From Pectobacterium aroidearum (GTDB lineage: Bacteria > Pseudomonadota > Gammaproteobacteria > Enterobacterales > Enterobacteriaceae): DNA of 64,000 nt. This document shows positions 14,810 through 45,662 of the stretch, piece after piece; position 1 is the first letter of the stretch; every line of letters starts with the position of its first letter. Location: NCBI RefSeq assembly GCF_015689195.1, contig NZ_CP065044.1, positions 682,001-746,000 of the forward strand, written 5' to 3'. Below the pieces are notes generated by a model, which worked only from the letters and a program-made list of their open reading frames with translations, was not told the origin of the DNA and made no database searches. A program made the translations under genes and the position numbers.

Positions 14810-16459
14810 ATGCCTGCCAGTTCTCCATCGTTAAGGTTCTATCTGATCATTGGCCTGCTCCAGGGGCTTTTATTTGTTGCCGCGCTTGAAATGGAAGAGA
14901 GCGTGCTTCAGATCATGCTGATAACGATGGCTGCAGTGGGCGGAGTGAGTCTGCAATTGCTGGAACGCACGCTCTTTGTGAAAAAGACGTGGCTTTGGGG
15001 CGGTGCGTTGACCGTGCTGATGACGGCGATTAGTGGCTGGGTTTTCTATGACAGTGGGCGATACCAACTGCCTGATTCCTGGATACTGTGTGGCATCCTG
15101 TTCGGTTATATCTGCTGTACGTTCATTTGCAGTTGGTCCACCCGTGAAGGGCGATGGCCGTCTTATGAAGCGATCTGTAAACACGCCTGGAACAATATTT
15201 TTACTGTGTTGCTGGCCTGGCTAGTGGCTCTGGTGGTCGTTCTCTTGCTCGTACTGTGCAGCATGTTGTTCAGCATGCTGGGGTTCCGGGTGGTGAGTAA
15301 AGTACTTTGGCATTATCGGTTTTATATGCTGCTCTTGCCGGTGGTGTTTTCTGTCGGCATGTATATTGGAATGACCAAAGAAGCGGTTGTTGGGCTGCTG
15401 TGTGGGATTCTGCTATCGGCTTGCCGCTTCCTGCTGCCCCTTAGTGCACTGATTACCGTGGTTTTCACCTTGACCCTGCCTTTTAGCGGTCTGGAACCGA
15501 TATGGAATACCGGCCGTTCTACCGTCATTCTTCTATGCCTGATGGGCGTAAACCTCTTTTTGATTAACTGCGCCTCTCAGGATGATAACGAGGGGCGCAC
15601 TTATCCTGCTGTGTTACGTGGGCTGGTTAACGCCAGCGTGTTGTGTCTGCCTGTGTTGGTGGCGTTGGCGGGCTATTCCAGCTGGCTGCGCATCGAACAG
15701 TATGGTCTGACGCCTGTTCGTTTTCAGTCGATCTTCGTAGTGACGATTGCAATGCTTTACAGTCTGGCGATGGTGTGGGCTGTCGTTCGCCGTTCTGGCG
15801 TCTGGTTAGGGAGTTTACGTACAAGCAATCCGCTGCTCGCGGCTATCATCTGCGTTCTGGTGATATTGCTGCATACACCGCTGTTAAGCCCAGAAGCCTT
15901 TAGCGCGAGGAATCAGGTTCAGCGTTTGCTTAATGGAAAAACGCCGATCGATGATTTTGATCTGTGGGCGCTGCGCGATGAGTTAGGCACGGCAGGCAGG
16001 AAGCAGTTTAACTGGCTGGCCGAAGAATTGAAGCAAGACCGAATTCTTGATGCGGCAGGGCGACAGGCACTGCGCGATCGGCTGCAGGGGCGACCTGCAC
16101 AAGTCCGCCCCGTTCAGGTTGAGTGGGTGGGGCCGTTGGAAGACGGGGTCGAAAGCATGCTGCAGGGCGATAATCTGGGTAATCAGTGCAGGGAAATGGC
16201 TTGCCTGCTCTTTGCCATTGATTTGACCGGCGATGGTCATAACGAAGTGCTCGTTTTTCCCCGAGTGGGCTGGGGAAATGGTGGGAAGATCCTCGCCCGT
16301 GATGAAAAGGGACAGTGGCAGATTGCGGCCAGTATGTTTGGCGCGATAGGGACGGAAAAACTGGTCGCACTGGTGAAAGATGGCAAGGTTGAAGCCGTCG
16401 CCCCACGCTTCAAGACGATCAGGATCGGGGATCAGAATATGGAGATCACCTATCCCTGA
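14810..16459 (+). CDS. DUF4153 multi-pass membrane protein with a soluble C-terminal domain
   Basis: A 549-residue protein. The first 370 residues contain about 10-12 hydrophobic helices and match the DUF4153 layout. Residues about 385-549 are soluble. This tail contains LFAIDLTGDGHNEVLVF near residue 472, an Asp-rich loop like the calcium-binding loops of FG-GAP/VCBS or EF-hand-like repeats, and ends in beta-strands. The function is unknown; DUF4153 proteins are sometimes found near transport or envelope genes. ATG 14810 follows AAAGGA. The TGA stop at 16457-16459 lies at the very edge of the MITE-like repeat, so the repeat may have replaced the original 3' end. Confidence 0.8.
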   Translation: MPASSPSLRFYLIIGLLQGLLFVAALEMEESVLQIMLITMAAVGGVSLQLLERTLFVKKTWLWGGALTVLMTAISGWVFYDSGRYQLPDSWILCGILFGYICCTFICSWSTREGRWPSYEAICKHAWNNIFTVLLAWLVALVVVLLLVLCSMLFSMLGFRVVSKVLWHYRFYMLLLPVVFSVGMYIGMTKEAVVGLLCGILLSACRFLLPLSALITVVFTLTLPFSGLEPIWNTGRSTVILLCLMGVNLFLINCASQDDNEGRTYPAVLRGLVNASVLCLPVLVALAGYSSWLRIEQYGLTPVRFQSIFVVTIAMLYSLAMVWAVVRRSGVWLGSLRTSNPLLAAIICVLVILLHTPLLSPEAFSARNQVQRLLNGKTPIDDFDLWALRDELGTAGRKQFNWLAEELKQDRILDAAGRQALRDRLQGRPAQVRPVQVEWVGPLEDGVESMLQGDNLGNQCREMACLLFAIDLTGDGHNEVLVFPRVGWGNGGKILARDEKGQWQIAASMFGAIGTEKLVALVKDGKVEAVAPRFKTIRIGDQNMEITYP

Positions 16460-16723
16460 TCCCGTCCTACTTCAAGCTGCATGTGCGTTGGCTACGTTCA
16501 GTCACCCGAATCACTTACTGGTGTAAGCTCATCGGGATGAAATGAGAGACATCCTGTCTCTCACCGAAGGCCAGCCAATGGCTGGTCAAATTCATTCCCG
16601 ATGAATTTGTCCCTCGCTTGCCGCGTTATTCGGCCTTAGGCCTCATCCCTTCGGGATCAGCGCAAGCGCTGTTCAAAAACGCCTCGTCGTTTTTGTCCTG
16701 CAACTCGAATTATTTAGGGTATA
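16457..16723 (+). repeat. MITE-like intergenic repeat, long copy
   Basis: About 267 bases, nearly identical over most of its length to the reverse complement of 45423-45620. The left end is worn (TCCCGTCCTACTTCAAG against TATACCCGTCATACTTCAAG in the other copy); the right end, AATTATTTAGGGTATA, is intact. It contains nested palindromes: GAGAGACA...TGTCTCTC, CCAGCCAATGGCTGG, and AATTCAT...ATGAATT. Compared with the other copy it carries about 70 extra bases before the right end (from about 16624). It encodes no protein; a non-autonomous transposable element is the simplest reading. Confidence 0.8.
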
Positions 16724-16781: not shown

Positions 16782-16825
16782 TTTCTGTACTTTAGCCACA
16801 TGCGAAAACACATGAGGATAAAGTG

Positions 16826-17389
16826 ATGTCAGTAATCAATACCCAAGTTAAACCATTCAAAAACATGGCTTTCAAAGACGGTCAATTCATCGAAGTGACC
16901 GAGAAGAATATCGAAGGCAAATGGAGCGTATTCTTCTTCTATCCGGCTGACTTTACGTTTGTCTGCCCGACCGAACTGGGTGATGTCGCTGACTACTACG
17001 ACGAATTCCAACAGCGTGGCGTGGAAATCTACTCTGTTTCCACCGACACCCACTTCACGCACAAAGCGTGGCACAGCAGCTCTGAAACGATTGGCAAAAT
17101 CAAATACACCATGATCGGTGACCCAACTGGCCAGCTGACGCGTAACTTTGAAAACATGCGCGAAGCAGAAGGTCTGGCCGACCGCGGTACGTTCATCGTT
17201 GACCCACAGGGCATCATCCAGGCGGTAGAGATCACGGCTGAAGGTATTGGCCGCGATGCATCTGACCTGCTGCGTAAAGTGAAAGCGGCTCAGTACGTTG
17301 CTTCTCACCCAGGCGAAGTCTGCCCGGCTAAGTGGAAAGAAGGCGAGGCTACACTGGCACCGTCTCTGGACCTGGTTGGCAAAATCTAA
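16826..17389 (+). CDS. ahpC: Alkyl hydroperoxide reductase, peroxiredoxin subunit AhpC
   Basis: A 187-residue typical 2-Cys peroxiredoxin, near-identical to E. coli AhpC and of the same length. The peroxidatic cysteine is C47 (DFTFVCPTE) and the resolving cysteine C166 ([10 protein letters not shown]). It reduces organic hydroperoxides, peroxynitrite and low hydrogen peroxide in the cytosol and is recycled by AhpF, encoded next. ATG 16826 has GAGG 8 bases upstream; the in-frame GTG one codon earlier is less likely. Tandem hairpins behind the gene suggest that ahpC is expressed above ahpF. Confidence 0.99.
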
Positions 17390-43438: not shown

Positions 43439-45421
43439 ATGTCTGACGACATGATTCATCACGGCTCGTCAGCGACGGGTAAACATGAAAATTTGCGCTC
43501 TATGCAGGAGGTTGCCATGAATGACCGTAATGCCAGCGAAATGCTTCGTACCTACAATATTGCCTGGTGGGGCAATAATTACTATGACGTCAATGAGCTT
43601 GGCCACATTAGCGTGTGCCCGGATCCTGACGTACCAGAAGCTCGCGTCGATCTGGCCAGACTGGTCAAAGATATGCAGAGGGATAACCATCAGCGCCTGC
43701 CTGCGCTGTTCTGCTTTCCGCAAATTCTTCAGCATCGCCTGCGTTCTATTAACGCTGCGTTTAAACAGGCTCGCGAATCATTTGGCTATGAAGGCGGTTA
43801 CTTTCTGGTTTATCCGATCAAGGTTAACCAGCATCGCCGCGTCATTGAGTCACTGGCTAATTCCGGAGAACCGTTAGGGCTGGAAGCGGGTTCAAAAGCC
43901 GAGCTGATGGCGGTACTGGGTCATGCCGGTATGACGCGCACCGTGATTGTGTGTAACGGCTACAAAGACCGTGAATACATCCGTCTGGCACTGATCGGCG
44001 AAAAGCTGGGCCACAAGGTTTATCTGGTCATCGAGAAGATGTCTGAAATTCGTCTGGTGCTGGAAGAGGCCGAGCGTTTGAATGTGGTGCCACGTCTTGG
44101 CGTCCGCGCTCGTCTGGCGTCTCAGGGATCGGGCAAATGGCAATCCAGCGGCGGCGAAAAATCCAAGTTTGGTTTGGCGGCGATTCAGGTGCTGCAACTG
44201 GTTGAGATGCTGCGTGAAGCCGGGAAGCTGGATAGCCTGCAACTGCTGCATTTCCATCTGGGCTCCCAGTTGGCAAATATCCGTGACATCGCGACGGGCG
44301 TGCGTGAATCCGCGCGCTTCTATGTCGAGCTGCATAAGCTGGGCGTGAATATCCAGTGCTTTGACGTCGGTGGCGGCTTAGGCGTGGATTATGAAGGCAC
44401 GCGCTCTCAGTCCGATTGTTCAGTGAACTATGGCCTGAACGAGTACGCCAACAACGTGATTTGGGGTATCGGCGATGCCTGTAACGAACACGGGTTGCCG
44501 CATCCGACGGTGATCACCGAATCCGGCCGTGCAGTAACCGCGCACCATACCGTGTTGGTTTCCAATATCATCGGTGTGGAACGCAACGAGTTCAGTGAAC
44601 CAACCGAGCCGGAAGAAGATGCGCCGCGCGCGCTGGAGAGTCTGTGGTCGACCTGGAAGGAAATCAAGCAGCCGGGGAAACGCCGTTCGCTGCGTGAGTG
44701 GCTGCACGACAGCCAGATGGATTTGCACGATGTGCATACCCAGTACACGCACGGTATGTTGGATCTGACACAGCGTGCCAAAGCAGAGCAGCTTTATCTG
44801 AGCATCTGTCAGATGATTCAGGAGCAGTTGGATCCGAGCAACCGCGCACACCGGCCGGTGATTGATGAATTACAGGAACGCATGGCTGACAAGCTGTATG
44901 TCAACTTCTCGCTGTTCCAATCCATGCCGGACGCATGGGGTATCGATCAGCTGTTCCCAGTACTGCCGCTGGAAGGGCTAGATAAACCGCCTGAGCGTCG
45001 TGCTGTGCTGCTGGATATCACCTGTGATTCTGATGGCACGATCGATCATTATGTCGATGGCGACGGAATCGCGACGACGATGCCAATGCCGCCTTACGAT
45101 CCAGAAAATCCGCCGCTGCTGGGCTTCTTTATGGTCGGCGCCTATCAGGAAATTCTGGGGAACATGCATAACCTGTTCGGTGATACGTCCACCGTTGACG
45201 TGTTTGTCTTCCAGGATGGTACGGTTGAGATTGAAGAATCCGACGAAGGCAATACGGTTGCCGACATGCTGGAGTATGTGCAGCTTGACCCTAAAGTGCT
45301 GATGACTCGCTTCCGCGATCAGGTTAAAGAAACCGATCTGGATGCGGAGCTTCAGGCACAGTTCATGGAAGAGTTTGAAACCGGGTTGTACGGCTATACT
45401 TATTTGGAAGATGAAGAATAA
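43439..45421 (+). CDS. speA: Biosynthetic arginine decarboxylase SpeA
   Basis: 660 residues (E. coli 658). A PLP enzyme converting arginine to agmatine for polyamine synthesis. The PLP-lysine motif is [17 protein letters not shown] near residue 125; [14 protein letters not shown] near 305 and the C-terminal [19 protein letters not shown] near 525 fit the family. Start ATG 43439 (MSDDM) matches E. coli, with AGAGG upstream. Agmatinase speB, expected downstream, is not here. Confidence 0.97.
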
Positions 45422-45422
45422 G

Positions 45423-45620
<198 letters not shown>

Positions 45621-45631
45621 TGACTGAGTAA

Positions 45632-45662
45632 AAAGGGATGCGAGTGAGCATCCCTTTTTTTC
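45632..45662. terminator. Bidirectional terminator between speA and the LuxR-type gene
   Basis: AAAGGGATGC (45632-45641) pairs perfectly with 45648-45657 around 6 nt, then more T. A-rich left flank makes it work on both strands. Confidence 0.85.

Follow-up and report, generated by a model that had tools for sequence, protein, structure and literature searches.

What are the two related palindromic sequences that lie between genes in the window (the whole 64,000-nucleotide stretch of Pectobacterium aroidearum DNA analysed here), and is their folded form maintained? The original prediction called them MITE-like, which is the right kind of element, but the family is already known: both are ERICs (also IRU or RU-1), and an unknown MITE was rejected as an explanation. 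Copy 2 without its insert is identical at 107 of 127 positions to the 127-bp ERIC consensus of E. coli (as printed in PMC2759123), compared with a mean identity of 57% and a maximum of 71% for 200 shuffles, and a 24-nt core pattern allowing up to three mismatches has two matches in the window and none in any of 100 shuffles. The 127-bp core and, it appears, the terminal repeats are those of ERICs, the difference being that the window copies hold hairpin inserts. Both copies lie between genes and vary in presence between related genomes, as ERICs do. The predicted bounds of copy 2 (198 bp, TATACCC...GGGTATA) proved exact and both of its terminal ends are present; copy 1 ends at 16723 as predicted, and its opposite end is a truncated ERIC end, where the flank CCCGTCCTAC abuts the ERIC directly at TTCAAG and the terminal repeat has been lost. 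The TA target duplication is clear at an ERIC near panC of E. coli, and the empty site corresponding to copy 2 in one genome (G490) has diverged. The copy-2 query matched 5375 of 5426 E. coli genomes, and in 558 of these a match at one place spans 80% or more of the query. Insertions within ERICs are not new as such, a 1997 note by Sharp reportedly bearing that title. In the accessible part of PMC3696847, a phrase on insertions within ERICs occurs once.

Table 1. Positions in the window of the two ERIC copies, their inserts and the neighbouring features.
Feature	Position	Strand	Remarks
549-aa ORF upstream of copy 1	14810..16459	+	no NCBIfam match at E 0.001
ERIC copy 1, inserts at sites A and B	16461..16723	-	from sequence, core TATACCCTAAAT.. 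read on the - strand; terminal repeat lost at 16461-16471
Site-B insert of copy 1, 71 bp	16539..16609	-	three predicted hairpins and a possible one of 2 bp; carries the compensatory A-T pair; R2 57.6 bits, E 7e-12
Site-A insert of copy 1, 69 bp	16627..16695	-	four predicted hairpins, first and last loops without GGA; R2 46.6 bits, E 3e-9
ahpC, downstream of copy 1	16823..17389	+	
speA, biosynthetic arginine decarboxylase, upstream of copy 2	43439..45421	+	
ERIC copy 2, single site-B insert	45423..45620	+	directly after the speA stop codon (45421)
Site-B insert of copy 2, 71 bp	45468..45538	+	three hairpins predicted, first and last loops with GGA; R2 58.6 bits, E 4e-12
Terminator-like hairpin and T run behind copy 2	45635..45661	+	read from the sequence; absent from the pattern-scan list

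Sequence comparison confirmed that the structure common to both copies is an ERIC core with one insert. Inserts of about 66-77 bp occupy three fixed places in the ERIC core, which in the P. aroidearum genome lie near positions 27 (site A), 45 (site B) and 83-88 (site C) of the 127 bp, alone or combined; copy 2 has a B insert, and copy 1 has an A insert as well as a B insert. The roughly 70 extra bases that had been noticed in the longer copy are therefore real but constitute a second insert of 69 bp at a different site, and the proposal of at least two size classes holds as to number (there are more than two) but not as to kind, the size classes being combinations of modules inserted at three sites; a single element with two length variants was rejected. 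Among 50 ERICs of this genome with a well-matched core, assigned by automatic segmentation and drawn from searches aimed partly at inserts, 20 have no insert, nine have C, five A, four A and C, three B, two B and C, two all three and one A and B, and four are mixed or truncated. The 34 ERIC inserts that were aligned (a set from which redundant copies, identical or nearly so, truncated A inserts of 22 nt and the shortened C insert of L007 were excluded) begin with ACAA after a G (ACAAA in 33) and are read in the same direction within the ERIC. Each folds as a chain of hairpins, four in many of them; B inserts of the window type form three, and in these hairpin 3 of the chain is no longer than 2 bp. 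Some short ERICs (L069, L071, L074, and L283 in genome G485) lack the intervening core, and their A insert seems to be joined directly to a C insert, apparently by recombination or deletion between two modules; one of these (L074, G000:C1:681836-681915) lies just ahead of the window start.

The change cited in the original prediction, from AATTCAT/ATGAATT to AATTCGT/ACGAATT in the first hairpin, is present, but of 36 B-type ERIC insert loci 35 have G-C at this pair and one, copy 1, has A-T, so that it represents a single event and says little by itself. Maintenance of the fold is borne out instead by strong covariation that extends far beyond the two copies. In an alignment of 43 mostly non-ERIC cassettes, made without structure and folded with RNAalifold, four hairpins were found with 94.4% of cells paired; 17 of 20 pairs had two-sided changes, and doubly changed cells numbered 217, compared with 63 (sd 7) after shuffling and 22-46 when the structure was slid. 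The 34 ERIC inserts alone, treated in the same way, gave three hairpins and 73 doubly changed yet paired cells, compared with 27 (sd 5) shuffled and 2-13 slid; the four window-type B sequences are unpaired in the third hairpin of this consensus. The contrasts with shuffles are not probabilities, because shuffling does not keep relatedness. The 43 cassettes were chosen from 80 matches by leaving out ERIC inserts already used, near-identical copies, variants of 83-85 nt, matches with E weaker than 1e-5 and a few others; three of them are carried by ERICs (L108, L115, L145). There is very strong evidence, taken over many species, that the paired fold of this module family is kept.

Two covariance models, R1 from the 34 ERIC inserts only and R2 from 39 non-ERIC cassettes (the 43 minus the three ERIC-borne ones and L153), connect the inserts to sequences known by other names. 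R2 detected each of the window's three inserts (E 3e-9 to 4e-12) and an ERIC insert of E. coli (56.8 bits). The best-characterised match of the family is the small RNA RrB of E. coli, located between the two rrnB terminators, which scores 44.3 bits with R1 (E 8.7e-12) and 78.4 bits with R2 (E 6e-18). Thus the model of ERIC inserts finds RrB and the model of other cassettes finds the window inserts, a shared hairpin module with the core of the tRNA-linked repeats (TLRs) RrA/B/F. The term tRNA-linked repeat is used in the accessible parts of PMC8144298 and PMC9245011, the former counting RrA/B/F among such repeats. At locus L334 (439-515) the module is itself the rrnB T1-T2 spacer, a segment also present in many cloning vectors. 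In E. coli, the RtT and argQZYV regions gave weak matches to R2 (20-26 bits), and the argX-hisR-leuT-proM region gave none. Of the TLRs of stable-RNA operons, to which the module is homologous, RrA/B/F of the rrn T1-T2 spacer are its clearest relatives and RtT a weaker one. Two tyrosine-tRNA trailer copies in the P. aroidearum genome are RtT RNA (RF00391; 99.8 and 99.5 bits) with the module inside, whereas in an Rfam scan of the window the inserts reached the gathering score of no family, RtT included, and only a tRNA was found. Several cassettes match AaHKsRNA22 (RF02902) below its threshold (30.9-35.0 bits, against 39.8).

The module is widespread. R1 found 95 places at E of 1 or less in the 5.0-Mb contig that contains the window, and within the order it matched 36 of the 119 genomes (E of 0.001 or less); within the class R2 matched 151 of the 369 genomes (E of 1e-4 or less), and in the phylum, other classes included, 59 of 249. 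Because only the best candidates of each genome were scored (for example, 12 in the R2 search of the class), counts per genome are at least the values given. Genomes of family f219 are among the matches outside the class, and the loci L312 and L315 were scanned with Rfam. Confinement of the inserts to ERICs was rejected: many R1 places are free or tandem, in a palindrome resembling YPAL or RU-2, ahead of terminators or in tRNA-Tyr trailers. The module is at the centre of the palindrome in seven repeats of this genome (L137-L142, L144) that resemble by eye, rather than by alignment score, the RU-2 of Yersinia and Erwinia carotovora in Table 1b of PMC2759123; the RU-2 of Y. pestis printed there is without the module. 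At six other loci of the same genome (L146, L147, L150, L154-L156) the module directly precedes a terminator-like hairpin and is flanked on each side by CATAAAAAA or a variant close to it, and in other genomes (L118, L125, L129) it lies within or beside a palindrome, TTACTTTTCTTTGGCGA..AAGAAAAGTAACTGG. The suspicion that tRNA genes were false matches of the models was also rejected, since ARAGORN, run on 23 and 20 loci, found no tRNA at the cassettes themselves, and tRNAs beside some of them.

A tRNA or tmRNA gene lies within 300 nt upstream of 36 of 156 family matches (from 176, minus four duplicates of a place and 16 weaker or odd ones), on the same strand in 35, of which 31 are at 42-97 nt. 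In 28 of the 31 tRNA- or tmRNA-trailing cases, what follows the cassette is a duplicate of the upstream gene's own 3' end, and 29 of 31 trailing copies fit that gene more closely than they fit the other tRNAs of the set. At two loci (L212, L215) the module is about 80 nt behind a tmRNA gene, and a copy of the tmRNA 3' end follows in L212 but not in L215. Most tRNA-trailing cassettes sit in a T-loop (GGTTCGA/cassette/ATCC), RrB sits in a copy of the 5S end (GGA/cassette/ACTGCC), and ERIC B sites read AAGGA or GTGA/cassette/ATCC, so that the left junction is GA in each of these hosts. The window inserts share with RrA/B/F the hairpin module, the GA left junction and, in the B inserts, GGA in the first and last loops. 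Unlike the TLRs, which follow a tRNA or rRNA gene and end in 18-19 bp of its 3' end, they are placed behind speA and before ahpC rather than in a tRNA or rRNA operon, and they lie in ERIC arms rather than ending with the 3' end of an upstream stable-RNA gene. Complementarity of the flanks, which would put the cassette at a hairpin tip, is slight (-7.06 versus -6.45, sd 0.21).

Genomes with and without the module can be compared at the same place. At the copy-2 locus, a genome of the same species (G487) and two others (G485, G491) have the same ERIC minus exactly 71 bp, with unambiguous junctions and zero target duplication, and G490 has no ERIC; one gain in the lineage of the window is simpler than several losses. 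Of 18 genomes of the genus, 17 are without an ERIC at the copy-1 locus, including G487, which has an empty site; in G485 the ERIC at this place is another one, shortened, which has inserts other than those of copy 1 and is bordered by the same additional AGCTAGT. At panC of E. coli, for which L158 and four further regions were compared, BL21 and APEC37 are without an ERIC, strain 100117 has an ERIC with its TA duplication and no insert, and L158 and L317 have an ERIC plus insert at the same ERIC position in both. In genome G364, a host repeat is present in at least nine copies with the module, and both joined flanks of the repeat without it were matched in 39 of the best 40 candidates scored, three of which were read.

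The reading preferred here, held with somewhat better than even confidence, is that both window sequences are ERICs carrying an RNA hairpin module of about 70 nt, of CsrA/Rsm type, nested in a MITE. It has to be weighed against explanations in which the present distribution or the paired stems arise at the DNA level. A serious alternative, though one given less than even chances, is that homologous recombination or gene conversion carried the inserts from one ERIC to another, old insert-bearing alleles being copied while the module itself no longer moves. The use of the same ERIC position by B inserts of P. aroidearum and of E. coli is consistent with this, as are the ERICs in which A runs into C (L069, L071, L074) and the shortened ERIC of G485, with its other inserts and the same AGCTAGT, at the copy-1 locus; at copy 2 the 218 nt on the left show a 2.3% difference from G487 and the 262 nt on the right show none, and the insert of copy 2 possibly came by gene conversion from another ERIC. 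Recombination leaves unexplained how modules first entered three sites of the ERIC and how they came to be in tRNA, 5S, YPAL-like and G364 repeats.

It is rather unlikely that the module is a mobile unit of DNA, the hairpins of its single strand being recognised by a putative site-specific or HUH-type transposase that inserts it behind GA without target duplication; stems and GGA loops would then be kept for the enzyme and not as RNA. Orthologous ERICs that differ by exactly 71 bp with neither duplication nor junction ambiguity, host repeats that exist with and without the module, the absence of strand bias beside protein genes (see below), and the GA left junction at ERIC sites A, B and C, in tRNA T-loops (GGTTCGA/ATC) and in the 5S-end copy at RrB, with a third host repeat agreeing to within a base, all point in this direction. 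Weighing against it, the left-junction sequence beyond GA varies, the identical dispersed copies in G364 and G240 lie inside larger host repeats and so can have been dispersed by the host, and the 35 of 36 same-strand placements behind tRNA genes fit an RNA role as well. Near-perfect hairpins are substrates for quasi-palindrome correction, in which template switching makes paired changes with no selection for the fold. That such hairpin-templated mutation accounts for the covariation is improbable: many stems are indeed perfectly paired, but neutral correction would not be expected to leave distant genomes with hairpins alike in number, spacing and loop sequence and with CAAA/TTTG nearly constant.

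The loops are what connects the preferred reading, an ERIC-borne RNA module, to CsrA. According to the accessible part of PMC7652899, CsrA recognises RUACARGGAUGU with ANGGAN in a hairpin loop, and the dimer bridges sites 10-63 nt apart. Of 133 distinct cassettes, taken from the same 156 family matches, 122 fold with at least three hairpins, and among these GGA is in the first loop of 112, the last loop of 112 and the second loop of two; the CsrB-like pattern CA.?GGA.G occurs within the final 35 nt in 111 of 133 cassettes, compared with 6 of 130 flank windows and none of 133 reverse complements, and the spacing from GGA to GGA is mostly 45-57 nt. Because R2 itself prefers GGA, a fairer figure comes from the 39 cassettes on which it was built, which were found with the GGA-poor R1: GGA is in the first loop of 34 and the last loop of 29. 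The predicted folds of the window B inserts have the loops CGGGA (first) and CAGGATG (last), and the A insert of copy 1 has GGA in neither. Among the 34 ERIC inserts of this genome, GGA is in the first loop of eight (none of 13 A, four of six B and four of 15 C inserts) and the last-hairpin motif is in four, all B, and a general CsrA role of ERIC inserts is weakened because most are without GGA. CsrB, CsrC, RsmY and RsmZ likewise have GGA in hairpin loops; here there are two sites per module, nested in repeats, and in an Rfam scan of 12 loci none of these four RNAs scored over threshold (only RsmY at 21.4 bits, threshold 57). In the accessible part of PMC8144298, RrB is reported to bind CsrA and Hfq in vitro, the CsrA shift being lost in a mutant with three GGAs changed; mutants of RrA/B/F are without clear phenotype there, and the 19 TLRs of E. 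coli tRNA operons are predicted not to bind CsrA.

How might such a module act? The fold is probably maintained as RNA, with stems that change freely yet stay paired and first and last hairpin loops that mostly keep GGA, the CsrA/RsmA recognition motif. If the ERIC were transcribed in the right direction, a B module could hold a CsrA dimer on its two loops, with an effect on that transcript or titration of CsrA as the possible consequence; this would not be expected of the A insert of copy 1, which lacks GGA. Judged from sequence together with the RrB experiments, an RNA role through CsrA/Rsm is suggested by the loops, by the sense position of modules behind stable-RNA genes and by copy 2, which is in sense between the speA stop codon and a terminator-like hairpin; counted against it are the loss of GGA from most ERIC inserts, the even distribution of strands beside protein genes, and cassette-bearing genomes in which no csrA was matched. 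At copy 1, the inserts are antisense to both neighbours, making an RNA role unlikely there. Strand bias beside protein genes was looked for and not found (++ 12, -- 15, convergent 29) in a tally that used a crude ORF caller and excluded 54 of 131 loci as lying inside a called ORF, and was dropped as a proof of RNA role. A search for csrA in the 151 cassette-bearing genomes gave no match in 14, one of them 100% complete, so that csrA as a strict requirement was rejected; the division of genomes with and without csrA is 137 to 14 in cassette-bearing genomes versus 175 to 43 (Fisher p 0.008). At seven loci (L163, L169, L174, L177, L178, L228, L240) csrA is within the stretch fetched, several having the order csrA, tRNA-Ser, tRNA-Arg with the module behind the tRNA, which could reflect a link to CsrA or merely the habit of following tRNAs. 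Table 2 of PMC8144298, in the part accessible, has a "speA chip-SEQ" entry among high-scoring candidates for CsrA binding in E. coli; its agreement with the position of copy 2 behind speA may be coincidence.

ERICs, TLRs, RtT and RrB are each already known. A literature search whose coverage excluded most subscription journals found no paper linking ERIC inserts to TLRs or RrB, and the word ERIC occurs 0 times in the accessible part of PMC8144298. A bolder proposal, which must be regarded as doubtful, is that one RNA-type module, found widely across the class and perhaps beyond it in the phylum, is mobile and enters other repeats and duplicated ends of tRNA, tmRNA and 5S genes at a precise point behind GA, thereby spreading paired GGA-loop docking sites for CsrA/Rsm, and that ERIC inserts, TLRs, RtT and RrA/B/F are one family with its own insertion machinery. 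If the preferred reading is right, ERIC inserts are relatives of CsrA-binding small RNAs, and Rfam and TLR families now held apart would become joined. There would be a precise insertion rule that can be tested (behind GA, with no duplication), with alleles of presence and absence ready in E. coli, and one of the commonest enterobacterial repeats could bring regulatory RNA modules to new genes.
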